Shown here: positions 1-20,387 of the stretch, in pieces
Layout: every line of letters begins with the position of its first letter
Numbering within the stretch: the first letter of the stretch is position 1
Origin: Acidobacteriota bacterium
Lineage (GTDB): Bacteria; Acidobacteriota; Terriglobia; Acidiferrales; UBA7541
Length of the DNA stretch: 46,350 nt
Assembly: GCA_003223325.1 (NCBI GenBank)
Contig: QHYS01000265.1
Span: forward strand, 1-46,350
Reading direction: 5' to 3'
Program-made: the position numbers and the translations under genes
The notes under the pieces: model-generated
What the model was told of the DNA's origin: nothing
Databases searched by the model: none
What the model saw: the letters and a program-made list of their open reading frames with translations, nothing else

Positions 1-397
1 AAACGATCCCGCGGATGAATCGGAGGACCGAGGACCGTAGGCAGACAAAAATCCCCGAGATTCCCCAGACGAACAAAAAGACCCAGCACCAAAACCCGAT
101 TGCACTATGTAGATCCCAATTGAACCGCGGGAAACGTGCGTCCCACTTGATTTTGGTGCTGCATCGCCAATGCTTAATCCCCGGCCACCAGAGAATGGCT
201 CCGGTTAAGGAAAGCAGCGTGAGGAGACAGGAAGCAATGCCGTTCACCAGACGCCCGGTATTCCCACCTAAAAGATTATTATGTAAGTCGGTAAGCCATG
301 CGAAGATGTGCTCGATCACCGTATAACGATCGCCCAGATCCGCGCCCGTGTAGGGATTGAATAGGCGTTCGATTCGCTTGTGGTCGCGCTCCTGTCC
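1..397 (-). pseudogene. PepSY-associated transmembrane protein, C-terminal fragment
   Basis: The minus strand is open from about 397 to the window edge and reads as the C-terminal half of a PepSY-TM (PiuB-like) inner-membrane protein. Visible features are an FNPYTGADLGDR segment, then LTDLHNNLLGG, a hydrophobic helix ending in ILWWPGIKHW, and FNWDLHSAIGFWCWVF leading into a second helix. These are the family's usual landmarks in the usual order. No start codon belongs to it: above about 400 the homology stops abruptly and an unrelated fragment on the other strand begins, so the N-terminal PepSY part is missing. The last 15-20 residues before the edge look unlike the family, which may mean a frameshift. 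I read it as a truncated relic, although the part left of the window cannot be seen. Confidence 0.6.
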
Positions 398-405
398 GAT
401 TAAAT

Positions 406-754
406 CATGGCGACCGCAATGCCATCGACCAATACTGGGATGAGAACGCCGATTATGTAGGCATTGACGGCCAATTTATCCACGGGCGACAACAAATGCG
501 TGATTTCTTCGCTAAGCTTCTCAAGTCGGGCGCCGGAACAGAAGTCGGTGTCATTGAGCAAGTTCGTTTCCTCCGTTCCGACATGGCTATCGTGGACGGC
601 TCCTGGACAATCACTGGCATGAAAGATGCGAATGGAAAACCTCGGAAAACCGCTGCCGGTGCTTCGAGGTCGCGGCTGTGAAGTCGTGCAGAGAAAGCGT
701 GGTCGATGGCGCTTTGTCGCGACACGAGAAATGGTGGTCTGGACGCCTCAGTAA
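406..754 (+). pseudogene. SgcJ/EcaC-like (DUF4440/SnoaL fold) fragment, frameshifted
   Basis: In frame from about 406 the translation is GDRNAIDQYWDENADYVG followed by IHGRQQMRDFF and VRFLRSDMAIVDGSWTITG, the pattern of small NTF2-like proteins of the SgcJ/EcaC/DUF4440 group. The frame is lost around 655-670. The normal C-terminal end, EVVQRKRGRWRFVATRE with stop at 752-754, continues in another frame. The first 20-30 residues of the family and a start codon are missing. One frameshift plus a missing N-terminus make this a decayed gene. These proteins are usually small cystatin-like enzymes or binding proteins, and no function can be assigned to the relic. Confidence 0.6.
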
Positions 755-823
755 CGCGCCATCTACCGTTCACCCGACCGCACCAGAGGAACAGCATCGA
801 ATGGGACAAATCCCGCGTGCGAC

Positions 824-1671
824 CTAGTTTGTGGAAGGCTCCTCGATATGGTCAATCACCAAAACATTCACAAGCCCGGTTTCCGCGTCCAGTCTAAGCC
901 CGAGTTGCTGGTGTAGTGCTTCCGGGAACCGGGAACTTCGGCAGTGAGGGATCGGGTTGGAAATTACGCACTCGATAAAGGTTGGGCTCGGGTACGAACA
1001 CGATACTGAAATCGAAACTCCCGTTGAGGCCGGTGTTATCCAAGACTTCGCGGTCAAGGTGCCCGACTACAGCCACGTGGCTTGCTATCTGCGGCATCGT
1101 AAGATTTCGCGCCTCAATCTGAAAAGGGTCGGTGCGTCATGCGGCAAATCGAACCCAAGGAGCGCACCGCAAGTAGTTGCGAATCCGCCGACCTTTGTTC
1201 GAGGCATCGGTTCGGAACCTGGCGCAAGCGGAATGGGCGTATTAGAGCAGGGCGGATCATCAGAATGCGGCCGGAGCCGAGATCCTGTCTTTCCGGGCTC
1301 GATTAGGTTAAGCGCGAATATTGGGAGTTCTCGCATCTCAAAATGGACCGCCAGTCGGAAACGATCCACAAGCAAAGATCGCATCATCAGACGCATTTGA
1401 TCTGTGGTTGGACTACCTTGCGCTTGCCCTCAATATCAAAAGGCGTTTTGGCCCAAGTCGGCAATTGCGATTCCAGAAAGTGGGTCTGGTAGGGTGTGAG
1501 TTTGTATGCAAACTCGATGTATGCGCTTAGCGGAAACTTAACTGCCGAAAGAAGATTTCCGTTGGGGGTGCTCTCATCCAAATCACTAAGATTGATGCTG
1601 GTCTGTGTGCGGCTGCCCTTTACGCTAGGCTTGACTGAGACAAACTCGAACTTCCGCTGGCCGCCTGCCAC
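824..1671 (-). pseudogene. TIGR03435 family protein, decayed
   Basis: Successive minus-strand frames give the ordered landmarks of TIGR03435, a family of unknown function expanded in soil Acidobacteria. They are FEFVSVKPS, then QLPTWAKTPFDIEGK (1387-1671), MMRSLLVDRFRLAVHFEMRE with FALNLIEPGKTGSRLRPH (from about 1396), MPQIASHVAVVGHLDREV with TGLNGSFDFSIVF (to about 950), and LHQQLGLRLDAETG with VLVIDHIEEPS (ending 824). At least three frame changes, near 1390, 1090 and 950, are needed to join them. The secretion signal expected before FEFVSVKPS is not seen. The gene is therefore inactive. It is the best taxonomic marker in the window. Confidence 0.8.
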
Positions 1672-2347
1672 CGCCTCCCATGTTACTCGCGGTGACGAAC
1701 CCAGCCAGGGTTCGCGAGCCTCCTACCAACAAGAATGGCTCCCTCAGACCTACCTCATGGTTCCAAGACAACCGAACGACGCAGCCTTCAACGCTGGGCA
1801 GTGGCGGTGCTGACGAGTAAACGGCGCTACAGCTCGACAGGAGGAACGGCGGTCCAACCCGGGACAAGTGCGAGGATCCTATGCCGATAAACTTGGTACC
1901 CGTGTGAGAGCCCTGGCGCGAAGACCATGGTGCGACCACCAGAGGGCCCCCTCTGAGTAGCCGCGCATTCGCTTCAGGAGATTTCTATCTTGTGCGAATT
2001 GTGCGTGATCGGCTTACCACGATTGGATGGCAGGATGTTTGCCAGACGACAACTGCAAGACCGCGCTTGTTGTGACGGCCACGATCATTGTCCGTAATTT
2101 AGGAGCCCAATTTCTTTCGGGGAGTTGACGAATAGGTCGGCGACCAAGGGGGCTAACGCGGAAAGTGAGTGTGCTTCGCTCAAGCCCTCGAATCAGAGGC
2201 GCAAAGCGTGTACGGAGCGAGTGGATGGATTCATTGTCAGGTGGAACCATTTTCGACTAGAGAGTGAATTGTAATCAGGGAGCTCAAATTGGCCTCTTGG
2301 TGTAGAAGTTGTGCTGACTGAAAGACTAAGAACGAACAGGAGGGAAT
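1672..2347. other. Gene-poor stretch left of the first secreted protein
   Basis: No convincing coding region on either strand. It holds a 7-bp stem hairpin at 1940-1955 (CAGAGGG, 2-nt spacer, CCCTCTG) that is not followed by a T run, and one copy of a 30-bp sequence (1987-2016) that recurs at 3178-3207. A good ribosome-binding site (AGGAGGG, about 2338-2344) at the right end belongs to the gene starting at 2348. Confidence 0.5.
1987..2016 (+). repeat. 30-bp direct repeat, copy 1
   Basis: Shares 27 of 30 positions with 3178-3207, including an exact run GCGTGATCGGCTTA. Each copy lies upstream of a gene for a secreted protein (2348 and 3357). It may be a shared upstream element or a leftover of duplication; the function is unknown. 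Confidence 0.5.
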
Positions 2348-2947
2348 ATGAAACCTGGATTTAAGTACGTCCCGGCAGCGCTCACTGTTCTTTTCGGGTT
2401 GGCGCTGCTTACAGCTAGTCCGAAGTTCCACCTTCTTCCGGGACTTCGGGCTAGTGTCCATGCTCAATCGAATTCGATCAACAACAACCCCATCCCCAAT
2501 TCTGTAAGCGCCTTCTCCCTTGCAACTGGCGGCATCTCAAACTTTGTCGCAGTTCCGTTTCCGGGCAAGGAGGGGACGTGTCCTGAAGATGCTGAAGAAG
2601 TAGGTGACGCGGAAAGTCCTCTGAATGTTAAGCAACACGTGGCTGTGAAGGTCGTTAAGGATTGCAACGGCAACACTAACGGCACCACGGACTTTGATGA
2701 CGAGAAGGGTGATAAATGTGTTGGGACCGCGGCCAGGCTTATTGAAAGCATTAACAAGGCGGCGGCGGAGGTGGATGGCGACTGCGACGCGAGCGTCGCT
2801 AGGGGCATTGCCACAAGAGCTAAATACGTCTTTTTCATCATCAAGAAGGCTCCTTATGGGGCATTCACGCTCAGCTGGATTACTCCTACAGGTTTGACGT
2901 TCAATACGTCGGGGTCACTGACAAGCGGTTATGCTCTGATCCGATAG
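2348..2947 (+). CDS. Secreted protein of unknown function
   Basis: A 199-residue protein with a classic signal peptide: MKPGFKY, a hydrophobic stretch at about 9-25, and a likely cleavage after VHA at about 38-40 (ASVHAQ). The start at 2348 is supported by an AGGAGGG ribosome-binding site ending about 4 nt upstream. The mature part is rich in Asn, Asp and Gly and has four Cys (about 77, 106, 123 and 148) that could form disulfides, consistent with export. I do not recognise a family. It sits alone, followed by about 400 bp without genes, and points the same way as the cell-wall genes from 3357 onward, which share a 30-bp upstream repeat with it. That is the only hint of a common context. Confidence 0.6.
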   Translation: MKPGFKYVPAALTVLFGLALLTASPKFHLLPGLRASVHAQSNSINNNPIPNSVSAFSLATGGISNFVAVPFPGKEGTCPEDAEEVGDAESPLNVKQHVAVKVVKDCNGNTNGTTDFDDEKGDKCVGTAARLIESINKAAAEVDGDCDASVARGIATRAKYVFFIIKKAPYGAFTLSWITPTGLTFNTSGSLTSGYALIR

Positions 2948-3356
2948 AGCATCCCTCGCAGTAGGGACTATTGTCGACAAAAGGAGCATTTACTGTTAGG
3001 GATTATCACCTTCGGTGACAGGGTTCCGGAGTCGTACAAACAACGTGCGGGACCCCTGTACTACGTCGGCTGCTGCAGTTAGGGGCGGCGAGAAAGGGAG
3101 CCGTTTTCGGCGGAGCTGGGCAGAGCCCAGAGCGCCAAGCTCGGAGCCCCTGGATCCCTGCGCTCCATAAGATCCCCATCTTGAGCAAATTGCGCGTGAT
3201 CGGCTTAACGCGACTAGATAAAGAGCAAGAAGAACGGAGGCGAACAAACCAACTTGGCGCAGCCGGTCGCCGCGTGGGCCGATCGCGGGCTCCGAAGCAA
3301 TCACAAAGTGCGGTTAGCCGCTCTCGAACGGTACAATTCACCCAGGGGCATCTTCA
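2948..3356. other. Intergenic stretch with second copy of the 30-bp repeat
   Basis: No gene recognised on either strand. The reverse-strand open frames here are low-complexity Arg/Ser/Pro shadows. The second copy of the 30-bp repeat is at 3178-3207, about 150 bp before the next start codon. Confidence 0.45.
3178..3207 (+). repeat. 30-bp direct repeat, copy 2
   Basis: Matches 1987-2016 with three mismatches (positions 7, 10 and 16 of the repeat). Lies about 150 bp upstream of the Tlde1-like gene. Confidence 0.5.
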
Positions 3357-3386
3357 ATGAAGCATAAATTAATGAAGCATAAATTG
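3357..3386 (+). repeat. 15-bp tandem duplication of a start region
   Basis: ATGAAGCATAAATT(A/G) occurs twice in succession and encodes MKHKL-MKHKL. It offers two in-frame start codons, at 3357 and 3372, and lengthens the basic n-region of the signal peptide by five residues. Confidence 0.85.
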
Positions 3387-4109
3387 CTGCTGTTTTTGCC
3401 TTGCGCCGTGGTTGTCTTCGGGTTCGGCGCTCGTCTGGCACCGTTCGGGCAGGATCCGTCACCAAACCAATCGAAGCGGTCGGCCGTGAATGTGTCCGCC
3501 GTTGCCAAAACAACGCCGCAGGCAAGCAGGCTGCCGCCCTTTAGCTTCCCTGTCCAATCCACTGGAGACGGTAATGACTATCCCGGTGGCCTGGTGAAGT
3601 TGCGGGGGCTGCTCACCCGCTCGCTGGCAAGCGACTCGGTCGCTGCTCACGATACCGCTCGAGGGGCTGAGTGTTTGTACAGTATTTCGGCTCACACCCT
3701 GGAGTGCAGCTCAAGTGTGAACCATCAGATGCCGCCGATCATTGTGGGGCCCGAGAATATCGCTTCCGGTTACGGTACATGCCAGGATAACCCGCAGTGC
3801 ACGGGCAGGAAATATATGCGGAGAGGTCCTGTCGAGCCCGGCGAGTACAAGATGAAGCGTGATGCGCGTCCGGGACACCCAGGGCGTTTCGTACTGGAGC
3901 CGATCCCGGCCAAGCCGGGATGGAGGCTTCGACTTCCCAGTTGGATGCCTGGATCGTTGCGAGGTGGTTTTCTGTTGGGCTTAGGTAGCTTTACGCACGG
4001 GTGTATCACGGTTCTGAAAGAGGATCCAACCGCGAGCGCGCAGTACGGAAAAATGCTGCAGTTGTTAGAAGCGGAGCATGGCAGCAACTACTTGCGAGTA
4101 ATACGTTAG
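3357..4109 (+). CDS. Secreted Tlde1/DUF2778-like protein (putative L,D-transpeptidase fold)
   Basis: A 250-residue protein with an N-terminal signal or anchor (hydrophobic at about 10-26), a Pro/Ser-rich linker, and a C-terminal domain from about 135. That domain resembles DUF2778/Tlde1, the L,D-carboxypeptidase/transpeptidase-like fold known from type VI secretion effectors. Visible landmarks are SGYG with C142 and C148, RRGPVEPGEYKMK (the family's RGPIPxGxY), and THGCITV with H214 and C216, the expected catalytic His-Gly-Cys. The other family His, usually in an F-x-I-H-G segment before this motif, is not seen: the sequence there is GGFLLGLGS. Activity is therefore uncertain. The next gene (gap 58 bp) is a peptidoglycan glycosyltransferase-amidase, so a wall-remodelling role is plausible. 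A decayed second copy of the C-terminus lies at 6799-6983. No T6SS genes are nearby. Confidence 0.6.
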   Translation: MKHKLMKHKLLLFLPCAVVVFGFGARLAPFGQDPSPNQSKRSAVNVSAVAKTTPQASRLPPFSFPVQSTGDGNDYPGGLVKLRGLLTRSLASDSVAAHDTARGAECLYSISAHTLECSSSVNHQMPPIIVGPENIASGYGTCQDNPQCTGRKYMRRGPVEPGEYKMKRDARPGHPGRFVLEPIPAKPGWRLRLPSWMPGSLRGGFLLGLGSFTHGCITVLKEDPTASAQYGKMLQLLEAEHGSNYLRVIR

Positions 4110-4167
4110 TGCTAGTGTAGCGTCCAACAAATATACGAGCTGGAGTGGCTCCCGAAGGATCCACCAA

Positions 4168-6798
4168 GTGTTAGGCAATTTTAGAGTGCCTTCCACCACT
4201 GTTCCATCAGATGATCGCCTGTTGCACGCGACCTTGATGCTTCTAAGTGTCGTCTATCTCCTATGGTTGGAGGGCGTCTCAAAAGATTGGTTTCTCTCCT
4301 ATATGGATCCATATCCTTTCACGGCCTCGCTCGCCACAACAATCGCGGTCGTTGGAGGGTTCATTAGCTTGCTTGCGGTGCGAACACCTATGCGCTGGCG
4401 TGATCTTCTTTTGTGGGCCACGCTCACGCTTACGATAATAGATCTTTTGGGAATCGCCCCCAAAGAGATTGGTATTTTCCCCGCGGTCCCAGTGCTTAGC
4501 TTTGCCCTCGGCACCGCTTCCCTTTTCAGTGCCACAGAGCAAGCCCACGATGGGAACAGGAAATTTTATGCAGCTGCCACCGCGTCGGGGGGGATGAGCT
4601 TGTGCGTGTGGGCTGCTCAATCCAAGAAGCTTCTTTGGGCTTTCTCTTTGAGCCTGGTTGTGGCAACGGTTTCAGGCCTAGCGGTTTGGCTGGCGAAGGG
4701 GGGAGGCGCAAGTTTGTTTCAGCCCAGAGGACGTTCAGCGCTGATGCGGTCTTGCGCCTTCCTAATTGTGGGCGGATTCGCAATTCTACTCGGTGTGACA
4801 TTCGGCCCTTCTCTCTTCCTCGGTATCTCCGATGCCGCAATGCTCGGACTGGGGTTAGGGTGGGGGGACCGCGCCAGACTGAGTCGCAGCGGTCTGACAT
4901 TAGCGCAAGGATGGTCTTTGCAAGCGTTTGGGCGGACCCTTGCCACCGAGCACGGCCTACTTACATGCCTAGTCGTTGGGCTTTTAGTGTGGATTGCGGT
5001 CGTAACTGGGGTAGTGAAGCTCCTTTATACCAAGCCAGACACCGACAGTGAAGCACAGGCGGCGCGCATTGCCTTGTGCGCTGGTTCCATTAGCTCAATG
5101 TATGGATTGTTACTTAGCATTCGCCTCAGACCCCCGTTTATGACCAGCGATTCGGTCATGGGAACAGCGACTTTAGCGGTTGTAGTAGCCTCAGCGGGTA
5201 TCGGGTCGTCCATGGTCGGGGCATCGCATGGTCCTGGATTTTTTGGAAAGATGGCGGTAGCACTTAGGCACAAGGTCAGTCTGGCTCTGCTGACTGGCTG
5301 CTTGGCTGAAATTGCGCTTCTCTCCTGTCTGGGGTTCATCTATTACCGGCGCAACTTGGACAAGATGATCGAGCCATATCTGGGCAGCGGCACGCCACCT
5401 GGTTTTCTCTCGGGTTATGCGCTTGTACCCGAAATTTCGACTGCAATGCAGGAGGCAATCGTAGCCTGTGAGGATCGTGGGTTCTACGAACACGACGGTC
5501 TGGAATGGAGATCCCTGCATAGTGCACTTCGGCTGAACCTGCGAGAAGCCCGCGTGATTGCGGGAGGCAGTACAATAACTCAGCAGCTGGCCAAGAATTT
5601 ATTTTTGACCAAAGAGCGTACGCTGAGCCGCAAGCTTAAGGAAGCTGCGCTCACCTTTGAGCTTGAGCGACTTCTACCCAAACAACGAATCTTGGAGTTG
5701 TACCTGAACAGTATTGAGTATGGGATGAATCAGCGGGGAGTTGGTGCCGCAGCTAGGTATTATTTTGGCAAAACACCTAGCGAGCTATCCCTACCGGAGA
5801 GTGCCCTGCTAGCTGGCCTTGTGTCGCGACCTCCCCACAGCCTCTCGTTATACGAGCTCGCCGTGTCAGAACGCACGGCGCTTAATCTGATAAAAATAAG
5901 ATGGATAGACCGCTACTGGGAGGCGGATTTTGAAAGAGCGGCAGCAATTCCTTTGAATCGTCTTCTTCGTCTCCCTAGCGATGCGACAAGGGCTACAGAG
6001 AACGGGCTGGACCAGCAAACCCAAGCATCCTCGCTGAGCCCAATCCTCCCTCCGTGGTACTGGCGCAATATCGGTGTGTTGATAGGCCTCAGCATTTTCC
6101 TGGCGTGTGTAGTGACTGCCGGATTCGGAGTGAAAACACTTCGAAGCAGCAACCGAGGCGCAGCAGGTGCCGTACCCCAAAGTGTGAATATCAAAGTGCT
6201 GCTATCCGCGGCTGTGTGCAGCTTATTCGCTGGTTCCGTTTTGCACTGCTATCAGGTCAACCGTGAACGTGCTTCAACGACGATAATCTACCCTTATAGG
6301 CATTCACCAAACTATGATTTTAGACCCTCAGACAGCAGAATTACCTGCGTGGTTCTGCATGCTAGTGGCCTAGGAACACTGGGAACAACCATCAACTTTT
6401 TTCAAGATCCCAATTCGATGGTTTCGACGCATTTTATCGTGGGCAAGGACGGGCGGGTCTTTCAGACTGTTCCTGTGGAGCGGCGGGCTTGGCATGCGGG
6501 AATTTCGCAACTGGATGGTATGTCCGATGTGAATAATTTCAGTGTGGGAATTGAACTCGTGAATCGAAACGACGGCACGGATCCTTACTCTGATTTGCAG
6601 TACGAAGCTGTCGCTCTAATTATCCATCAGCTTCGTCAGAGTCATGAGATTCCCGACGGACGAATTGTCTCTCACGCCGAGATAGCCCTGCCCGCTGGTA
6701 GGAAATCAGATCCCGAAGGTTTTGATTTTGATAAGCTTCGCGAGCTACTGAATCCCTTCCCTGGAACGCAATCCGCCCTGGCGCGCGAGAGTCCGTAG
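4168..6798 (+). CDS. Membrane-bound GT51 peptidoglycan glycosyltransferase fused to N-acetylmuramoyl-L-alanine amidase
   Basis: An 876-residue multidomain protein. Residues 1-390 hold about eight or nine hydrophobic helices. Residues about 420-570 are a GT51 domain with all the usual motifs: CEDRGFYEHDG (catalytic E435), GGSTITQQLAKNLFL (466-480), RKLKE (488-492), KQRILELYLN (505-514) and LSLPESALLAGL. Two more helices follow (about 633-655 and 675-695). Residues about 725-860 are an amidase_2 domain with the expected zinc ligands H731, H836 and D848 and the catalytic-type E796 in GIELVN. There is no penicillin-binding transpeptidase domain. The protein would therefore polymerise glycan strands and could cut stem peptides on the same outer face of the membrane. 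It starts at GTG (4168) with an AAGGA site about 8 nt upstream. It follows the Tlde1-like gene closely. Confidence 0.85.
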   Translation: MLGNFRVPSTTVPSDDRLLHATLMLLSVVYLLWLEGVSKDWFLSYMDPYPFTASLATTIAVVGGFISLLAVRTPMRWRDLLLWATLTLTIIDLLGIAPKEIGIFPAVPVLSFALGTASLFSATEQAHDGNRKFYAAATASGGMSLCVWAAQSKKLLWAFSLSLVVATVSGLAVWLAKGGGASLFQPRGRSALMRSCAFLIVGGFAILLGVTFGPSLFLGISDAAMLGLGLGWGDRARLSRSGLTLAQGWSLQAFGRTLATEHGLLTCLVVGLLVWIAVVTGVVKLLYTKPDTDSEAQAARIALCAGSISSMYGLLLSIRLRPPFMTSDSVMGTATLAVVVASAGIGSSMVGASHGPGFFGKMAVALRHKVSLALLTGCLAEIALLSCLGFIYYRRNLDKMIEPYLGSGTPPGFLSGYALVPEISTAMQEAIVACEDRGFYEHDGLEWRSLHSALRLNLREARVIAGGSTITQQLAKNLFLTKERTLSRKLKEAALTFELERLLPKQRILELYLNSIEYGMNQRGVGAAARYYFGKTPSELSLPESALLAGLVSRPPHSLSLYELAVSERTALNLIKIRWIDRYWEADFERAAAIPLNRLLRLPSDATRATENGLDQQTQASSLSPILPPWYWRNIGVLIGLSIFLACVVTAGFGVKTLRSSNRGAAGAVPQSVNIKVLLSAAVCSLFAGSVLHCYQVNRERASTTIIYPYRHSPNYDFRPSDSRITCVVLHASGLGTLGTTINFFQDPNSMVSTHFIVGKDGRVFQTVPVERRAWHAGISQLDGMSDVNNFSVGIELVNRNDGTDPYSDLQYEAVALIIHQLRQSHEIPDGRIVSHAEIALPAGRKSDPEGFDFDKLRELLNPFPGTQSALARESP

Positions 6799-6983
6799 CG
6801 CGAGCTTCCCAGTTGCGTGCCAGGAGCTTTGGCGATTTTCTATTGGGGAAAGGTAATTTAATCACGCACGGCTGCATCATGGTCCTAAGTACAGACTGCA
6901 AGGCCAGCGCGCAGTACAAGAAACTGGAAGAGGTATTGGAAGCGCAGCCCACCGCCAATAATAAATTGGTGTTCGTACCCTAA
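6799..6983 (+). pseudogene. Relic of a second Tlde1-like C-terminus
   Basis: Directly after the stop of the preceding gene, the plus strand reads ELPSCVPGA, then after a frame change near 6840 LGKGNLITHGCIMVL, then SAQYKKLEEVLEAQ, ending at TAA 6981-6983. This follows the C-terminus of the protein at 3357-4109 (LPSWMPGS, GLGSFTHGCITVL, SAQYGKMLQLLEAE) almost residue for residue. There is no start codon and no N-terminal domain, and one frameshift is needed. The GT51-amidase gene is thus flanked by a complete and a broken copy of the same domain. Confidence 0.8.
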
Positions 6984-7061
6984 TTGTTCGCGCGGTGCGC
7001 GATTTCGGGCGCGCTTTGAATCAGCATGATTGTGAGTGGTCCGTACCTGGAGCACTAGCTT

Positions 7062-7766
7062 ATGGTGAATATCCGTGGACGCAAGCTAATTAACTTTGGT
7101 CTGGTAGCTGTGGACATCGTCGTTGCCGGTGCGTTCGCGGCGAATATCGTGATTACCCACGCCGCCAAAGGTAAAACTTACTCGGATGTCACGCTGATTC
7201 CTCACCAGCGCGTTGGACTGGTTCTCGGCTCTCCCAAACGTGTTGCAGATGGCCGGCTCAATCTGTTTTTTCTGGGGCGGGTCAAGGCAGCCGCGGAGCT
7301 ATACCGGCAGGGCAAGGTGGATTATCTGCTGGCAAGCGGCGACAACGGTCCAGGTGATGACGAGCCCGCGGACCTTAAGAGCGGGCTGATCAGTCAGGGA
7401 GTGCCAGCCGAGAAGGTCTATCTGGATTATGCCGGTTTCAGGACTCTCGATTCGGTTGTCCGCGCAAAAGAAGTGTTTGGCCAGACCCAGATCACTATCA
7501 TCTCACAGGAATTTCAGAACCAGCGAGCCATCTTTATCGCCAACCATTCGAGGCTGGACGCGATCGGCTTCAATGCCCCCGATGTCTTCAGTGGCAGAAC
7601 CGTGATCCGTGAGTCTCTGGCTAGAGTAAAAGCAGTGCTCGACGTTTACTTGTTTCACACGCAACCGCGTTTTAGAGAACGAACGGTGGCAATTGGGAAT
7701 ACTGCTCAAGGTCTTACAGCTGCGGGGAAAGCTCTTCCGAAGCGAGCGTCGGACGACAGCCAATGA
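7062..7766 (+). CDS. sanA: SanA-like DUF218 inner-membrane protein
   Basis: A 234-residue protein with one N-terminal membrane helix (about 10-32) and a DUF218/YdcF-like domain outside it. It closely follows the SanA (vancomycin exclusion protein) pattern: VLGSPKRVADGRLN (54-67), VKAAAELYRQGKVDYLLASGDN (to 95), DEPADLK, YLDYAGFRTLDSVVRA (about 120-135) and TIISQEFQNQRAIF. SanA proteins affect envelope permeability and antibiotic exclusion in Escherichia coli; the biochemical activity is not established. The C-terminal 25 residues are a basic tail beyond the usual fold. The gene lies beside peptidoglycan genes, consistent with an envelope role. Start at the first ATG before the membrane helix; the upstream TGGAG is rather distant. 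Confidence 0.85.
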   Translation: MVNIRGRKLINFGLVAVDIVVAGAFAANIVITHAAKGKTYSDVTLIPHQRVGLVLGSPKRVADGRLNLFFLGRVKAAAELYRQGKVDYLLASGDNGPGDDEPADLKSGLISQGVPAEKVYLDYAGFRTLDSVVRAKEVFGQTQITIISQEFQNQRAIFIANHSRLDAIGFNAPDVFSGRTVIRESLARVKAVLDVYLFHTQPRFRERTVAIGNTAQGLTAAGKALPKRASDDSQ

Positions 7767-7770
7767 GATC

Positions 7771-8358
7771 ATGTTCCTATTCGGCACATTCTGGCAGATG
7801 AAGCGGCGAACAGATCCGCTAGTCAGAACAGCAATTGCTGCCGTTCTCGTGCTGCTGCTAACGGCAGCGACAGGGTTCGAATACGACCAACGAAGACATG
7901 GAGGCCCGAGAAAGATTTATTTGACATTTGACGCAGACATCACGCCCGAGATGAGGCACCGCCTGCAGGCAGGAGAAGTGCCTGCGTGGTACAGTCCAGG
8001 CTTAGTAGCGTATCTCGCGAAGCAACAAGCTCCGGTGACTCTGTTTGTAACCGGGTTGTTCGCGGAGGCCTATCCCGAACTTGTGAAAGAGCTTGGCAGC
8101 AATTCGCATTTTTCAATTCAAAACCACACCTATGACCATTTAGCCTTTCAAAGCGACTGTTACGGCCTGCCCTGGACGAGCAATTTCAGGCTAAAAAAGT
8201 ATGAGATACAAAAAACACAGCAAATGATTTACGCCCTAACGGGCACAAGCCCCAGAAATTTGCGCCACCCCGGCCCAGCCCAACAGAGATACGACAATTC
8301 TGTCCCTCTCCATATCGTTGGTATCGTACCCTCAGACATGATCGCCTCGATCCTCTGA
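7771..8358 (+). CDS. NodB-type polysaccharide deacetylase, C-terminally shortened
   Basis: About 195 residues with a signal anchor (KRRTDP, then a hydrophobic run at about 18-33) and a NodB-homology domain. Motif 1 is LTFDADITP (52-59), where the usual second Asp of TFDDG is displaced. Motif 2 is NHTYDHLAF with metal-type His at 119 and 123. Motif 3 is LRHPGPAQQRYDN (R165). After motif 3 the family normally continues with the W-D and final H motifs, but here the frame ends within about 25 residues in unrelated sequence. The barrel is therefore incomplete and activity is doubtful. The start could be 7771 or, just as well, the ATG at 7798 immediately before the basic residues. It follows the SanA-like gene at once (stop 7766). 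Confidence 0.6.
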   Translation: MFLFGTFWQMKRRTDPLVRTAIAAVLVLLLTAATGFEYDQRRHGGPRKIYLTFDADITPEMRHRLQAGEVPAWYSPGLVAYLAKQQAPVTLFVTGLFAEAYPELVKELGSNSHFSIQNHTYDHLAFQSDCYGLPWTSNFRLKKYEIQKTQQMIYALTGTSPRNLRHPGPAQQRYDNSVPLHIVGIVPSDMIASIL

Positions 8359-8472
8359 ATCAGGCCAATAGAGCCCAGCTCCGACTAGATGGGAGTGTTG
8401 GCATGTGCGAAAGCGAATTGAGTCTACGTTGGGCCGTCGTTTTTGCCCGGGACGAATGGGACACTTCGGTAT

Positions 8473-10530
8473 TCAAGGGCTCGTTGGTAGTGCGATCTCC
8501 TCTGGCGGGCTAAAGCCGATCTGCCGAGATCGAGCGTCGTGCGACGAGAGCTCGCGGTAGGCCTTTTCGAAGTCCTCCTGGGTGACAGCCGGCACAGCCT
8601 CGATGACCTCCGGCGCGACGCCGCAGGCGTCGAGCTCACGTATAAGTGCATTGCGGCCTGCGAGCGTGCACAATCCCTTGAGCAGAGCTCCACTGGCGCC
8701 CTCCGTCTGAGCCGCGAGGAGTTCCAGGTTCACTGACGGCGCCAGCCGCATCTTCTTCGAGAAGAGTTCTAACATCGCCTTACGTCCCATGAAGTCCGGC
8801 AGGGGGAGTTCGATACGCTCCCCAAGTCGTCCCGGCCGCAGGAAGGCTTCGTCGAGCAGCTCGGGCCGGTTGGTCGCGCCGATCACGAAGACGCGCGTCG
8901 ACGAATCTAGACCATCCATCTCCGCGAGAAACATGTTGACCACGGCATCCTGGGCGCGGAGGGCCCCCGAGTCACCTTCACCACGGCGCTCCGCTACGGC
9001 GTCGATTTCGTCGATGAAGATGATCGCGGGCACCCTCGTGCGGGCCCGCGCGAACAGTTCCTTCACCCGTTGCTCTGACTCGCCTAGCCACTTGGAGAAG
9101 ATGTCGGCGGCGCTGACTGCGAAGAACGACGCATCCGTCTCCGACGCCAAGACGCGGGCGATAGTCGTCTTGCCGGTACCCGGAGGACCGGACAAAAGGA
9201 TCCCAGACGGAGGCGCAATGCCGAGTTCACGGACGACCTGAGGATTTTCAATAACCTTCTTGATGATTTGGAGCTTCCGTTTGGCGTCGGCGGGCAGGAT
9301 GAGATCGTCCCAGCCAAGCTTTACACCGCCGTATCGGCTCGCGGTGACGTTCGTCCGATACGCCGCACGGAGGTGTTCGCTGCGAATCGGGTGACCGGCT
9401 TCTAGCGCCGCCAAGGCAGCCTCGTCTATAACACTCCGAATCCGCGCGGAGGAGAACCCCTCCAAGTCCTTGGCCAACTCGGCGAGGCGAAGCTGGCGGA
9501 CATGTGGCCGTCCTCGGATCACGGTTCGCAGAATTGCAAGCCGCGCATCGAAGTCAGGATTATCGATCCTGACCTTATAATCGAAGCGTCCGTCGCGAAC
9601 GACTGCGGGATCCAGGTCTTCGAACCGATTGGTCGCCGCAACGATCAAAAGCCCCGGCCTCTCTCGATGGGCGTCCAATTGCTGAAGCAATGCATCAACC
9701 ATCTGCTGGGTGTCCAGGGTCGGGGCGTCATCTCGCTTGCGGGCAATCGCATCGAACTCGTCGAAGAAGAGCAGGCAAGGTGTTCTGGAACGGGCTTCGT
9801 GAAAGAGGCGCTCAATCGCATCGGGGGCGCCACCCGCGTATTTGCTAATGGCCCTCTCGAGCGGAACGCGAAGCAAGTGCAAGCCGAACTCCTCGGCCAT
9901 CGCCTGTACAAAGAATGTCTTGCCGCAGCCAGGGGGACCGTGGAGGAGAATCCCATTTCGGACGACACCATAACGACGCGCCTCCTCCTGCCGGACGTGC
10001 ACGATCTCGACGATGCGTCGAATCTGACTCTTGAGATCGTCCATCCCACCCACACGCGCAAACCCAGTAAGCGGCGGCCCGTTGACCTGCCGCCTGCGCC
10101 GCTGCTGCGGCTCCGCTACACGTTTCCGTACGAGGTGACGTTCACGAGCAGGCTTACGGACCGACTTCGGCAGCAGGGCTGCGGGGCGGCTTGGCGTCTC
10201 ACGTGCGAGAGGGGACAATGGACGGTCTTCGACGAGACGCCAGTGGAGCGCGCGACCAAGTGCACCTTCCAGATACACGGGTGTTATCCCCCTCGCCCAC
10301 CGTAGTGTATTGGCTCTGTCAGGCTGCGTCGTTTCGCGCGGAGTACGGATTACTGGTCCACCTTGCACCGGCGCGAACTCCATCCAGCCATGCCAGTGCT
10401 GGGTGCCATCACCCGCGCTGCCACCACATACCCGGGCGCTATAGGCCGTCCGGTCGAGGGCCAAAACGGGTTCCTCGAATTTCACGAGTACTTCCCTATG
10501 CGGTGCGAATCGCTCGCGCCAGTCGCGCAC
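8473..10530 (-). CDS. CDC48-like AAA+ ATPase with two AAA domains and a novel N-terminal domain
   Basis: A protein of about 685 residues if read from the GTG at 10530, which has a GGTGAGGAG ribosome-binding site 6 nt upstream. The open frame extends to 10602, but that part translates a short tandem repeat. N-terminal region (about 10-100): a compact domain with TAYSARVCGG, HWHGWMEF and RTPRETTQPDRANTLRWA, not an ordinary CDC48 N-domain. AAA 1: Walker A GPPGCGKT (about 198-205), Walker B LLFFDEFD, sensor VAATNR, arginine region RDGRFD. AAA 2: GPPGTGKT (about 448-455), IIFIDEID, IGATNRPE, LRPGRLGER. Both ATP sites look complete. Such proteins unfold or remodel other proteins as hexamers. A small gene (10639-10845) lies upstream in the same direction and gvpA diverges from it, suggesting a role with gas vesicles, which is an inference from position. 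Confidence 0.85.
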   Translation of the reverse strand: MRDWRERFAPHREVLVKFEEPVLALDRTAYSARVCGGSAGDGTQHWHGWMEFAPVQGGPVIRTPRETTQPDRANTLRWARGITPVYLEGALGRALHWRLVEDRPLSPLARETPSRPAALLPKSVRKPARERHLVRKRVAEPQQRRRRQVNGPPLTGFARVGGMDDLKSQIRRIVEIVHVRQEEARRYGVVRNGILLHGPPGCGKTFFVQAMAEEFGLHLLRVPLERAISKYAGGAPDAIERLFHEARSRTPCLLFFDEFDAIARKRDDAPTLDTQQMVDALLQQLDAHRERPGLLIVAATNRFEDLDPAVVRDGRFDYKVRIDNPDFDARLAILRTVIRGRPHVRQLRLAELAKDLEGFSSARIRSVIDEAALAALEAGHPIRSEHLRAAYRTNVTASRYGGVKLGWDDLILPADAKRKLQIIKKVIENPQVVRELGIAPPSGILLSGPPGTGKTTIARVLASETDASFFAVSAADIFSKWLGESEQRVKELFARARTRVPAIIFIDEIDAVAERRGEGDSGALRAQDAVVNMFLAEMDGLDSSTRVFVIGATNRPELLDEAFLRPGRLGERIELPLPDFMGRKAMLELFSKKMRLAPSVNLELLAAQTEGASGALLKGLCTLAGRNALIRELDACGVAPEVIEAVPAVTQEDFEKAYRELSSHDARSRQIGFSPPEEIALPTSP

Positions 10531-12329: not shown

Positions 12330-15300
12330 ATGTGGCTGCAGGCCTTATATCGGAATCAGCAAGGTCCAATTCAACGCCAATCCAGCGCACTTCTGCGTAA
12401 GTCATTTGTTTTCTTTATTGTTTTATTATTCTTGTCAGCAATGCTCGTACAGTTGGGATGCTCTGGAGCGGCAAGTCTTGCCGCCGATCCAGCACCATTG
12501 ATCAAAAATCAGCCGGCCGGCCAAGTGGTGACGGCTGGACAGACTGCCAACTTCACCGTTACGGCAGACGGAACCCTTCCCCTTCTTTACCAATGGCGGA
12601 AGAACGGGACAGCGATTTCCGGCGCAATATCGTCGAGCTATACGACCCCGCCCACAACGGCTGCCGATAACGGTGCACAATTCGTGGTAACTGTCAGTGA
12701 CAAAGCTGGGTCTGTAACCAGCAACCCCGCTACCCTTATCGTTACAGCTGCTAACATGGGACCCTCGTTCACCTCTCAACCAGTCGGCCAGACCATCACC
12801 GCGGGCCAGACTGCCACTTTCTCGGTGACCGCTTCCGGAACGGCACCGTTGAGTTATCAGTGGAACAAAAATGGAACCGCCATCAGCGGCGCGACCTCGT
12901 CGAGCTACACCACTCCGGCGGAGACCGTTTCCGACAATGGCGCCGAGTTCACTGTTGTGGTCAGCAACAGTGTCGGTAACGCGACCAGCAATGCAGCTAT
13001 CCTCACTGTGACGGCCGCTCCAGTAGCTCCTTCCATTACCACACAGCCGGTCAGCCGAACAGTCACCGCCGGCCAGACGGCCACGTTTTCCGTCATCGCC
13101 AGCGGAACCTCGCCGTTGAGCTACCAGTGGAACAAGAACAGCTCGGCCATCAGTGGCGCGACTTCCTCAACCTACACGACTCCGGCCACCACCAGCTCCG
13201 ATAATGGCGCCCAGTTCATGGTCACCATCACGAATTCGGCCGGCGCGATCACCAGCAACCCGGCCACGCTAACAGTGAATACCCCACCGTCGATCACCGC
13301 TCAGCCGGCCAGCCAGATTGTAATTGTGGGACAATCGGCGACGTTCTCGGTGACAGCCACAAGTATCGCCCCGCTGAGCTACCAGTGGCAAAAGAACAGG
13401 GCCGCTATCAGCGGTGCAACCTCATCGAGCTACACCACTCCGGGAACTACTACAGCAGACAACGGCGCGCAGTTCACCGTTGTGGTCAGCAATAGTTTTG
13501 GTAACGCGACCAGCAATGCAGCTATCCTCACCGTGACGGCCGCTCCAGTAGCTCCTTCCATTACCACACAGCCGGTCAGCCGAACAGTCACCGCCGGCCA
13601 GACGGCCACGTTTTCCGTCATCGCCAACGGAACCTCGCCGTTGAGCTACCAGTGGAATAAGAACGGCGCGGCCATCAGTGGCGCGACTTCCTCAACCTAC
13701 ACGACTCCGGCCACCACTAGCTCCGATAATGGCGCCCAGTTCACGGTCCTGGTCAGCAACACAGCAGGCAGCGTCACCAGTAGTGCCGCCACGCTTACGG
13801 TGAATGTAGCTACCTACTTGCTCAGCGCCAGTCCAGCGAGTTTGAGCTTTGGAAACGTAAACACCGGTACCAGTAGCACTCTCCCCGTCACGCTCACGAG
13901 CTCCGGCAATTCCAATGTCACGATTTCGAATGTCGGCATTTCCGGCGGCTTCAATGCCACTGGCGTATCCGCTGGAACGATTCTGACTCCCGGAAAAACC
14001 ACAACTCTGAACGTGACCTTTGCTCCGGCAGCCATTGGGAGTGTCACGGGCAGCGTTACAATCACCAGCAGTGCCACGAATTCGCCGACTTCTATCCCAC
14101 TGAATGGTGTTGGCACCCCGCCTGCGGTTACACTTGCGTTTCCTGGTGCTCAAGGAGGAGGTGCACTCTCTGTGGGTGGGCGTGGTGGCGCAGTCTATCT
14201 GGTCAGCAACATGGCCGACTCTGGAGCAGGATCGCTGCGGGCGTGCATTGACGCAAGCGGACCACGCACTTGCGTTTTCCGCACAGGTGGCACTATCGCG
14301 CTGCTGAGCTCGCTCACGGTTTCCAACCCCTTCATTACGATCGCGGGGCAGACGGCCCCCGGCGGCGGCATCCAGATCAGTGGACCTAGCGGAGCAAACG
14401 CTGCCGGCAACCCTGCCCTCTTAGTCAGGACGCACGACGTAGTAGTCCAATATCTGCGCGTAAGGCGCGGCCACAATGCTGGCGAGATTTGTAACGGCGC
14501 GCCTTGGAGCTGCGGTATGAGCGTGGAAGTACTTGCGAACCAGGCATCGGATAATCCCTATAACATCATGTTCGACCATGTTGATGCAGAGTGGTCCAAT
14601 TATGATGCCTTTGGCTTAGCAGGTCACCCCAATGCCGGGACCAATCAACCACGCTCAATCACAATATCGGATTCGATTATCGGAGAGGAATTTGCTGGAG
14701 CGGGACAAACAACAGGAGCTGCTGTCGGCGGCTACTCTGGCCTGGGTTCAACGGCAGAAGATCTTGAGGTTGATATCGATTTTCACCACAACCTATTTGC
14801 GGGCACGAGCCATCGCATGCCGCTCACGACAATAAAGTCCGGAAGATTGGTGAATAACTTTATTTATGGTTGGACCTACTACCCCATGCGCGGCAAGGGG
14901 TTCCGCGATATCATTGGCAACTACTTCAAATACCGATCGGCGCAAGGATTTGTTTCACACGAAATACAAGCTTGGACTACCAACGACGGTAACGACACAT
15001 CGTTTGCCCCTTCCTTTTATCTGATCGGCAACGCTGGTCCAAGCGATCCAACCGGAACAAACAACTGGGCAATGACTGGGTTGGCGATAAATGAAAGCGC
15101 GGGCGAAGGTTCTAGTCCTCTTTCCGCGGTTTACCAGAGCACGTCGCCCATTCCGACTCCGCTGGGCTACATTTCCATCACCGCAGATCCGGTATCAAAA
15201 ATATCCTCACCTTCTGGAATATTCCTCAATGCGGGAAGAGCCGCCCCGTACGACGGAGTCGGAGCCTCACGTGAGTTGGACTGTTCGGGTAAGTGGGTCG

Positions 15301-15608
15301 ATGCGCGAGACCCCATAGACAACCGCATCGTAAGCGCCGTGGTCAACGGAACCACTCTTTACGGCTCTTACGATTATTCGTCCCTCTCGGCGTCGCCGCA
15401 GAGCCAAGCCGATCTAGGCAGCTGGCCGACTTTGGCGGCGGGGGCCGCCTGCGTTGACAGCAATAACAATGGATTACCAGACGTCTGGGAGTCCTACTGG
15501 GGTGGCGTCCTGGGTCTGGGCAGCACCCTCAACCCCAATGGTTTTGACTTTGGCGACGGATACACCAACCTTGAACACTACTTTGACGGGATGAGTCCCT
15601 CGCCGTAA
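12330..15608 (+). CDS. Secreted Ig-repeat / choice-of-anchor D / pectate-lyase-like beta-helix protein
   Basis: A 1092-residue exported protein. A signal segment (about 25-45) ends in QLGCSGAAS, which could be a weak lipobox. Five Ig-like domains of about 88 residues follow (starting near 53, 144, 233, 319 and 409), each with QPxxxxVTAGQTATFSV, PLSYQWxKNG and DNGAQF. A choice-of-anchor D/ASH-like domain lies at about 497-595 (LSFGNVNTG onward). From about 600 a right-handed beta-helix of pectate-lyase type begins with AFPGAQGGG, GGRGGAVYLV and ITIAGQTAPGGG, then FDHVDAEWSNYD. The C-terminus DSNNNGLPDVWE and GDGYTNLEHYFDG resembles the calcium-binding-like tail of such lyases. It probably binds or cuts an acidic polysaccharide outside the cell. 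It faces the exopolysaccharide genes. The start codon has no strong ribosome-binding site. Confidence 0.75.
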   Translation: MWLQALYRNQQGPIQRQSSALLRKSFVFFIVLLFLSAMLVQLGCSGAASLAADPAPLIKNQPAGQVVTAGQTANFTVTADGTLPLLYQWRKNGTAISGAISSSYTTPPTTAADNGAQFVVTVSDKAGSVTSNPATLIVTAANMGPSFTSQPVGQTITAGQTATFSVTASGTAPLSYQWNKNGTAISGATSSSYTTPAETVSDNGAEFTVVVSNSVGNATSNAAILTVTAAPVAPSITTQPVSRTVTAGQTATFSVIASGTSPLSYQWNKNSSAISGATSSTYTTPATTSSDNGAQFMVTITNSAGAITSNPATLTVNTPPSITAQPASQIVIVGQSATFSVTATSIAPLSYQWQKNRAAISGATSSSYTTPGTTTADNGAQFTVVVSNSFGNATSNAAILTVTAAPVAPSITTQPVSRTVTAGQTATFSVIANGTSPLSYQWNKNGAAISGATSSTYTTPATTSSDNGAQFTVLVSNTAGSVTSSAATLTVNVATYLLSASPASLSFGNVNTGTSSTLPVTLTSSGNSNVTISNVGISGGFNATGVSAGTILTPGKTTTLNVTFAPAAIGSVTGSVTITSSATNSPTSIPLNGVGTPPAVTLAFPGAQGGGALSVGGRGGAVYLVSNMADSGAGSLRACIDASGPRTCVFRTGGTIALLSSLTVSNPFITIAGQTAPGGGIQISGPSGANAAGNPALLVRTHDVVVQYLRVRRGHNAGEICNGAPWSCGMSVEVLANQASDNPYNIMFDHVDAEWSNYDAFGLAGHPNAGTNQPRSITISDSIIGEEFAGAGQTTGAAVGGYSGLGSTAEDLEVDIDFHHNLFAGTSHRMPLTTIKSGRLVNNFIYGWTYYPMRGKGFRDIIGNYFKYRSAQGFVSHEIQAWTTNDGNDTSFAPSFYLIGNAGPSDPTGTNNWAMTGLAINESAGEGSSPLSAVYQSTSPIPTPLGYISITADPVSKISSPSGIFLNAGRAAPYDGVGASRELDCSGKWVDARDPIDNRIVSAVVNGTTLYGSYDYSSLSASPQSQADLGSWPTLAAGAACVDSNNNGLPDVWESYWGGVLGLGSTLNPNGFDFGDGYTNLEHYFDGMSPSP
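12975..13218 (+). repeat. Nearly identical 244-bp repeat within Ig domains, copy 1
   Basis: Spans the end of Ig domain 2 and most of domain 3. It matches 13500-13743 with only about seven substitutions over 244 bp, offset 525 bp (175 codons), so recombination between the copies would delete or add exactly two Ig domains in frame. Confidence 0.85.
13500..13743 (+). repeat. Nearly identical 244-bp repeat within Ig domains, copy 2
   Basis: Second copy, spanning the end of Ig domain 4 and most of domain 5. The other Ig domains in the gene are much less alike at the DNA level, so this pair is a recent duplication or has been homogenised. Confidence 0.85.
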
Positions 15609-18100: not shown

Positions 18101-20094
18101 TCAAGCTCCGCCGCAACGGCGAGCAATAGGGCGGAAGAGACAATTATCGTCCACCGAATCGGCAGGGCCTCGTTGCCAACCAGATGCAGAGTTACAGACC
18201 GAACTGGGACGTGTGTCAGGCCGCTGGAATCGCCGCTCGAAGTGCCGCAGCCAGATTTCAAGGATGAGACATTTCCACAGCAGACCAGAATAGTCGCGCG
18301 CACCGCGCAAATGGTCTCGGAAGTAGGCTTCCAAGTTAGGCATCTGGAGATATCGATTTACAGATGCCCTAGACGAAAGGACATGATCCAAGTAGTACTC
18401 TCGCAATTCGTTGCGCAACCAGCGGCTAACGGGGACTCCAAAACCCCGTTTGAACCGGTGAAATACTTCAGCCGGAAGCAAATCCCTGAACGCCCTCTTC
18501 AGCAGCCACTTCTGGTTCCGGCCGCGAATCCGCTGATTGTCGGGGAGGGTGTTGGCGAACTCGATCACTTCATTGTCAAGAAACGGGACACGAATTTCGA
18601 GCCCGTGTGCCATGCCCCCCTTATCCGACTTCTCCAAATAGGTGCCTGGGAGCCAGAATTGCTGGTCCGCTAGACAAAGGTGACTGACGGTGCCCGTGTC
18701 CAGTTCATCGGGATAGCACTCCTGAATACAGGTTTCGACAGCTACTCTTCTTAGCCATTCCGGCTTCAAAACAGTTTCGATCGGGATCTCGCTCTCGAGG
18801 TAAGAGGAGTATCGAGCCGGGGCACCTCTCCTCTCCATGGCTCGCAGAACGACCTGGAAGCGACGGGGCCCCCAAGCGACACGACTAAGGTGCAGAGCGC
18901 GAACTAACATGCACAGCCCCGAACCAAATCGACCGAGTGACCGGATCACCTTCTCGAACTGGTAGCGACGGTAGCCCCCAAAGAGCTCATCCGAGCCCTC
19001 ACCCGCAAGTGCGACAGTGACTTGGGATCGAACCATCCGGCTGAGCAGGAACATGTTCAGGGCCGCGGCGTCGGCGAACGGCTCGTCGTAATGCCAGACC
19101 AACGCTGGGCATGGTCGATTTCGTCGTAATCCGGCCCCATGCCGGGATACCCAAGCGTGAAGGCCATCGTTTTCTCCGGGCCCAACAGCTGTGCCGTCAG
19201 AGCCGTCAGGATCGAGGAGTCAACTCCCCCACTGAGCAGCACGCCCACTGGCACGTCCGCAACTAGTTGACGGGCCACTGCTGCCGACAGCACTCTCCTC
19301 AATTCGCCTGCTGCGCTCTTGTCTTTGCGCGAGACGGGATGCCATCGGGGTCGCGGCCAGAACCGGCCGACGCTGATGACCAAGGAAGGATTGCCCAGCG
19401 TAGGTTCGTGGACTGTCATAACCTCGCCTGGCTCCAGTTGGCGCACACCTTCAAGCACGTGGTTCTCGCCATAGCAGTGCCCATAAGTGAAGAAGGCAGC
19501 CAGTCCGTCCGCACTGATCCTGGAACCGAAGCGCTGCATCCGAAAGAAAAACTTGGCTTCCGAGGCGAAGAGGAAAACATCCTTGTGCGCCCAGACATAC
19601 AGTGGCTTGATACCCGTGCGGTCACGCGCTAAGTACAGTCGTCGGCTTTCACGGTCGTAGAGGGCGAGGGCAAACATCCCGTTCAGGCGAGTCAGGAAGT
19701 CAGGTCCCCACAAGGCAAATCCTTCTACGATGACCTCGGTGTCGGAATAGCCCCGCCAGCTGCGCACACCGGTTCTCTTAGCCAACGGAGTGAATGAATG
19801 ACACCGCACAGCGGTGCGCTGCCACTCTTGCTCTATTTCCGCCCGCAGTTGTTGGAAGTTGTAAACCTCACCGTTATAGCAGAGCACGATGCGTTCGTCG
19901 GCCGAAAGCATTGGTTGATTGCCAGTGGGGCTCAGATCAATGACGGCTAGGCGCCAATGTAGAAGGCATACGCCAGTTTCCTGCCACGAGCCGAAGTTGT
20001 CGGGACCTCGGTGAGCCAAGACCGCTCTGTTTTCGCCGCTGGCATCGGGCCAGACCCGAGCTGTCCGCCCAAACGCGCCTGCAATTCCACACAT
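18101..20094 (-). pseudogene. asnB: Glutamine-hydrolysing asparagine synthetase (AsnB-type), broken by deletion and frameshift
   Basis: The N-terminal half begins MCGIAGAFG with the required nucleophile Cys2 (start 20094), then AHRGPDNFGSW, RLAVIDLSPTGNQPM and LCYNGEVYNF, the class II glutaminase. The synthetase domain opens with VGVLLSGGVDSSILTAL, the ATP pyrophosphatase loop. Near 19100 the text jumps from DYDEIDHAQ directly to LVWHYDEPFADAAALNMF in another frame. The family has about 30-35 more residues between these, so roughly 100 bp are missing and the frame is shifted. The rest, including VALAGEGSDELFGGYRRY, stays open to 18101. AsnB homologues in exopolysaccharide loci amidate or modify sugar or peptide substrates; this copy should be inactive unless the deletion is an assembly error. 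Confidence 0.85.
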
Positions 20095-20105
20095 AGATCG
20101 ATCCA

Positions 20106-20387
20106 TTAACTCATGAGGGTTTGGCAGCAGACAGTCCGAGGGCAGAGCACCGAGCGATCCGCTGCGAGCCTGGGAAGACTGAAACGCGCTTCGAAGCGTT
20201 GCCGGTCGAGCCGGCTATCCGTATACCGCGGAAGTTTGACGGGGTAATATTCCCTAGTGCAGTTCCAATCGTTCAGTCGTGCGAACGGCCAGGGAGAGTA
20301 CTGCTCCACCTGATACTGAAGCGTACACCGCGGACCCACGAAGGTCATATCCCCGCGAAGCACGTTCCCTAGTTGAGGCAAGATCAT
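20106..20387 (-). pseudogene. Bacterial sugar transferase (phosphoglycosyl transferase) C-terminal relic
   Basis: The minus strand reads ILPQLGNVLRGDMTFVGPR, the hallmark [21 protein letters not shown] of phosphoglycosyl transferases, followed by QVEQYSPWPFARLNDWN. The expected PGITG-WQVNGR segment is already scrambled. The N-terminal membrane part is absent. The frame ends in TAATG overlapping the open frame of the synthetase relic. A complete member of the family is at 26901-27533. Confidence 0.7.

Follow-up and report, generated by a model that had tools for sequence, protein, structure and literature searches.

We analyzed a stretch of 46,350 nucleotides (below, the window means this whole stretch) from the genome of a soil acidobacterium (assembly GCA_003223325.1, contig QHYS01000265.1), in which one gene joins a predicted peptidoglycan glycosyltransferase of the GT51 family to a predicted AmpD-like zinc amidase. 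Copies of the gene were also found in two other contigs, QHYQ01000196 (L033), which belongs to the same genus, and QHPX01000163 (L034). The features at the locus are as follows:

2348-2947, plus strand: small protein of unknown family, 199 aa, with a hydrophobic N-terminus; on the same shared block as the fusion gene
3357-4109, plus strand: L,D-transpeptidase-like protein, 250 aa, with a Tlde1 domain below the Pfam cut-off and a THGCI motif
4168-6798, plus strand: GT51-amidase fusion gene, 876 aa, GTG start; intact in L033 and L034
4219-5346, plus strand: polytopic membrane domain at the N-terminus (residues 18-393; about ten helices predicted), without a convincing relative
5428-5841, plus strand: GT51 peptidoglycan glycosyltransferase domain (residues 421-558; E435, E492)
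6067-6252, plus strand: two predicted membrane helices between the enzymes (634-655 and 675-695) with a positively charged loop
6334-6717, plus strand: Amidase_2, AmpD-like zinc amidase domain (residues 723-850; H731, E796, H836, K846, D848)
6804-6988, plus strand: 3' end of another L,D-transpeptidase-like gene, left as a remnant immediately downstream of the fusion gene
7062-7766, plus strand: SanA-like DUF218 membrane protein, 234 aa
7693-8358, plus strand: PdaB/NodB-like polysaccharide deacetylase, truncated at about 8275; complete (278 aa) in L033

Elsewhere in the window, a large polysaccharide cluster occupies positions 20719-44515 of the minus strand, with genes of the Wzy_C, Wzz/tyrosine kinase, flippase-like, glycosyltransferase, FemAB/GNAT-like and PylC-like ATP-grasp types. 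The gene at 12330-15608 (plus strand) encodes a protein of 1092 aa that carries several immunoglobulin-like domains and, after them, an ASH/HYDIN-like domain. The glutamine-hydrolysing asparagine synthase at 18101-20106 (minus strand) is divided between two overlapping open reading frames in different frames (profile positions 1-66 and 91-354), which is likely to be the result of a frameshift. For a DUF3738 gene that is intact in both L033 and L034 (280 aa), the corresponding position of the window (about 819-1660, minus strand) lacks a long open reading frame, and the gene is probably disrupted there.

The open reading frame of the fusion gene has no internal stop codons and lies in an open frame of 898 aa. 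Two Pfam domains, and only two, were found in its product: Transgly (PF00912; residues 421-558, 170.5 bits against a cut-off of 27, E = 3e-50) and Amidase_2 (PF01510; residues 723-850, 100.4 bits against a cut-off of 26, E = 1e-28), and whole-genome family searches reproduced the positions of both (5428-5841 and 6334-6717). In the comparison to solved structures, the best match of the GT51 part was Aquifex PBP1A, whereas the amidase part matched AmpD and AmpDh2. Residue E435 aligns with the first motif glutamate of Aquifex PBP1A, GGSTITQQLAKN is located at 466, and RKLKE at 488-492 supplies the second glutamate, E492; the motifs EDxxFxxHxG, RKxxE and GGSTITQQ are all present (E435, E492 and G466-Q473), and E435, G466, S468-Q473 and K505 are conserved across 13 viral GT51 sequences. 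In the amidase part, the zinc ligands H731, H836 and D848, the catalytic E796 and K846 are all present and align to AmpD. Judged by its catalytic residues, the single chain is thus predicted to hold two complete enzymes.

Membrane helices were predicted by scanning hydropathy on a biological scale, and their exact number is uncertain: the scan returned ten candidate segments in residues 18-393, two or three of them weak. Both segments between the enzymes (634-655 and 675-695) score as insertable. The loop that separates them (656-674) contains three K/R and no D/E residues, and the same composition (three K/R, no D/E) was found for the loop preceding the helix 370-393; thus, by the positive-inside rule, both GT51 and the amidase would lie on the outer side of the membrane, i.e., in the periplasm. 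The sequence-only reading of this DNA had reported the GT51 residues E435 and RKLKE, the amidase residues H731, E796, H836 and D848, about ten helices, and a pair of helices separating the enzymes; all of this was borne out, with E492 to be added as the second glutamate of GT51 and K846, absent from the earlier list, to the amidase. Relatives of the N-terminal membrane domain were searched for in 396 acidobacterial genomes, yielding two weak, stop-interrupted matches only, and in viral contigs, yielding none, so that in the samples searched this predicted domain is an orphan with no convincing relative. The DAD family was considered for it and rejected, the Pfam match being at chance level.

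The two enzyme domains have relatives of different kinds. In the domain tree, GT51 clusters (support 0.98) with short GT51 proteins of the monofunctional type, i.e., the MtgA/SgtB type (TIGR02070), which likewise carry GT51 without a transpeptidase. Monofunctional GT51 proteins are short and have one anchor helix, whereas the fusion protein has about ten helices upstream of GT51 and an amidase downstream of it; its score with the TIGR02070 equivalog profile (156.9 bits) is under the cut-off of 182.65. Class A penicillin-binding proteins (PBP1A family) offer another likeness, in that a single chain carries a polymerase (TIGR02074, 161.8 bits) and, C-terminal to it, a second wall enzyme. The fusion protein has no C-terminal transpeptidase domain, and its second enzyme is predicted to remove peptides and not to cross-link them. 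The amidase domain groups with acidobacterial amidases that are not attached to GT51 (support 0.67). It has the zinc ligands, the catalytic glutamate, the lysine and the RAWHAG segment in common with AmpD, AmpDh2 and AmiD; however, those are separate cytoplasmic or envelope proteins, whereas the fusion amidase is tethered behind a polymerase, and the AmpD equivalog NF008758 gives 97.5 bits, under the cut-off of 143. Descent of the amidase from a phage endolysin was considered and rejected: PHROGs endolysin profiles do match, but the nearest domains are the acidobacterial unfused amidases, with weak support. It should be noted that the genome of the window carries two GT51 genes besides the fusion gene, both with long frames and both also present in its relatives, whereas the Amidase_2 domain of the fusion gene is the only one in this genome, and two of the compared genomes (G001 and G029) have none.

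The sequence-only reading proposed a domain-architecture search across Acidobacteriota. No other GT51-amidase fusion was found in the 396 acidobacterial genomes queried with the amidase, nor, beyond the same-genus copy, among 151 relatives. Searches of 289 genomes of the phylum of L034, of 50,697 phage records and 72,556 plasmid records, and of 95 viral loci retrieved by profiles of GT51 and of the amidase were equally negative, and a strict scan of genome contigs for the fusion gene returned L033 and L034 only. In the papers searched, no description of a combination of GT51 and amidase was found. Other phyla were sampled to a limited extent, and "new" here means not found in these samples. 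Within the samples searched, the fusion gene is confined to one genus, and by its domains it is a lineage-specific, new combination of known enzymes.

In L033 the fusion gene is intact (876 aa) and differs from that of the window at two residues. In L034 it is in frame with a 93-bp in-frame deletion (L034 position 6381; window 5065-5157), by which 31 residues are gone from near residue 300. This deletion is clean and takes out one weak predicted helix; the rest of the gene has silent substitutions only. The three assemblies share an open frame of 870-900 residues within a shared block of about 8.3 kb, beyond which the contig flanks differ. Identity between the window and L033 is about 99% as far as window position 8275 (L033 position 13494), where they diverge within the deacetylase gene. 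L034 (positions 1-9020), which was binned with Verrucomicrobia, matches the acidobacterial block at about 99% identity and has a different left flank; its label is probably due to mis-binning, or else to transfer. There are seven distinct base substitutions among the three copies, five of which are silent; if one quarter of random changes are silent, the probability of at least five silent changes is approximately 0.013, a value based on few events in sequences that are not independent. The copies are closely related DNA from fragmented drafts with similar sample-style titles, so that independence of site is limited, and all of them may come from similar soil samples. Taken as sequence, the fusion gene is probably a maintained gene.

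The insertion site could be examined by comparison with G029, a genome from another genus of the same family, where an L,D-transpeptidase-like gene is directly followed by a SanA-like DUF218 gene. The corresponding products are 59% identical over 150 aa (transpeptidase-like) and 71% identical (SanA-like) to those of the window, in which the fusion gene lies between these two genes. Because the two are adjacent in G029 without the fusion gene, the latter has been inserted there. The remnant at 6804-6988 is closer to the G029 gene (65% at the amino acid level and 72% at the DNA level) than to the intact copy upstream (56% and 68%, respectively). In the simplest reading of these sequences, the resident transpeptidase-like gene lost its front part to a unit made up of the fusion gene together with the intact transpeptidase-like gene, which took its place, an order of events that we infer from the comparison. 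A genomic island at a tRNA gene was also considered; there are no tRNA genes in the window, L033 or L034, and this option was rejected. Of the neighbors, the intact L,D-transpeptidase-like protein scores 23 bits with Tlde1 (PF10908), under the cut-off of 30.1, its THGCI motif being present, and its hydrophobic N-terminus suggests export. The best NCBIfam match of the deacetylase is PdaB, at 69.7 bits far under the equivalog cut-off of 237.4. In L033 the deacetylase gene is followed by an SLT lytic transglycosylase gene and a gene for a 480-aa membrane protein; this continuation is missing from the assembly of the window, save for 195 bases before the break. Since the deacetylase is broken and the lytic transglycosylase region is absent in the genome of the window, the set of neighbors is variable between close strains.

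We suggest, with a probability of roughly 0.5, that the fusion protein is a bifunctional inner-membrane wall enzyme that builds and cuts at one spot, as part of an add-on wall-remodelling module. In this model, polymerase and amidase would be kept together at the outer face of the inner membrane, where GT51 would polymerize lipid II into a longer glycan, and the tethered amidase would strip stem peptides within its reach, either to release old cross-links or to trim the newly made strand. Cross-linking and further modification would be carried out by the L,D-transpeptidase-like and deacetylase products and, in L033, by the lytic transglycosylase, as the neighboring genes suggest, and the module would be an addition to the two other GT51 enzymes common to the relatives. 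In E. coli, under some conditions, wall synthesis is possible with only GT51, a carboxypeptidase and an L,D-transpeptidase (PMC5089857); thus, such a toolkit would be chemically sufficient. Coupled synthesis and cutting by the fusion protein is plausible given that the neighbors are predicted to act on the wall, that the catalytic residues are kept, and that most of the changes between copies are silent. Conversely, the loss from L034 of a stretch that includes a predicted helix is not what one would expect of a precisely built membrane domain, the neighbors do not form a fixed unit, and the transpeptidase-like call consists of a sub-threshold Pfam match and a motif. An envelope-passage site, which the sequence-only reading had offered as a possible place of action, finds no backing at the locus, where the neighbors are wall-modifying genes and not secretion or conjugation genes.

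A young chance fusion is possible but unlikely: the gene would have been recently assembled or captured, its domains perhaps active while functionally uncoupled, and the gene itself perhaps dispensable. The restriction to one genus, the insertion beside a broken transpeptidase-like gene, the different flanks in each assembly and the 31 residues lost from one allele are all consistent with such an origin; however, both catalytic sites are complete, the changes are mostly silent, wall genes are the neighbors, and a random join would not be expected to contain a hairpin bringing the second enzyme back to the outside.

A rather improbable alternative, drawn by analogy, is a machine for peptide-stripped glycan, in which GT51 would extend the chain, the amidase would strip it, and the PdaB/NodB-like deacetylase would modify the exposed muramic residues, giving a cortex-like product outside spore formers. 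In the spore cortex, a glycan polymer is processed by the amidase CwlD and then by the CE4 enzymes PdaA and SwsB (PMC12444981). The order of the chemistry (polymerization, peptide stripping, CE4-type enzyme) is similar, and a CE4-type gene lies near the fusion gene, whereas no sporulation context was seen at the locus, and the broken deacetylase in the genome of the window is the reason for the low standing of this alternative. CwlD, moreover, belongs to another amidase family.

It is improbable that the amidase is cytoplasmic, which would require that the helix pair contain one true helix or none, and that the domain work in recycling, as AmpD does. A near relative that is free-standing (L009) has no signal peptide at its start, and among PDB structures the best match is to AmpD, which is cytoplasmic and acts on 1,6-anhydro muropeptides, but both helices are insertable by score, the loop between them is positive, and AmpDh2 matches too. 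Still less probable is a non-catalytic amidase domain that binds or regulates the polymerase, as CwlM does for MurA; amidase homologs can be regulators whose enzymatic function is non-essential (PMC4946905), whereas here the zinc ligands, the catalytic glutamate and the lysine are all in place. Finally, a sequencing or assembly error joining two genes, named beforehand as grounds for giving up the fusion, would accord with nearly identical copies that all come from fragmented draft genomes, but it is contradicted by a frame kept in L033 and L034 with different flanks, which makes such an error very unlikely, and the fusion is real DNA.

Bacteria balance wall synthesis against cutting, and the two are usually joined via protein complexes that are hard to dissect. 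If the bifunctional wall-enzyme reading is true, both activities would occur naturally on one polypeptide, which would make this coupling directly testable, with one site inactivated at a time. It would also mean that GT51 can pair with a hydrolase and not a transpeptidase, cross-linking being left to other enzymes.
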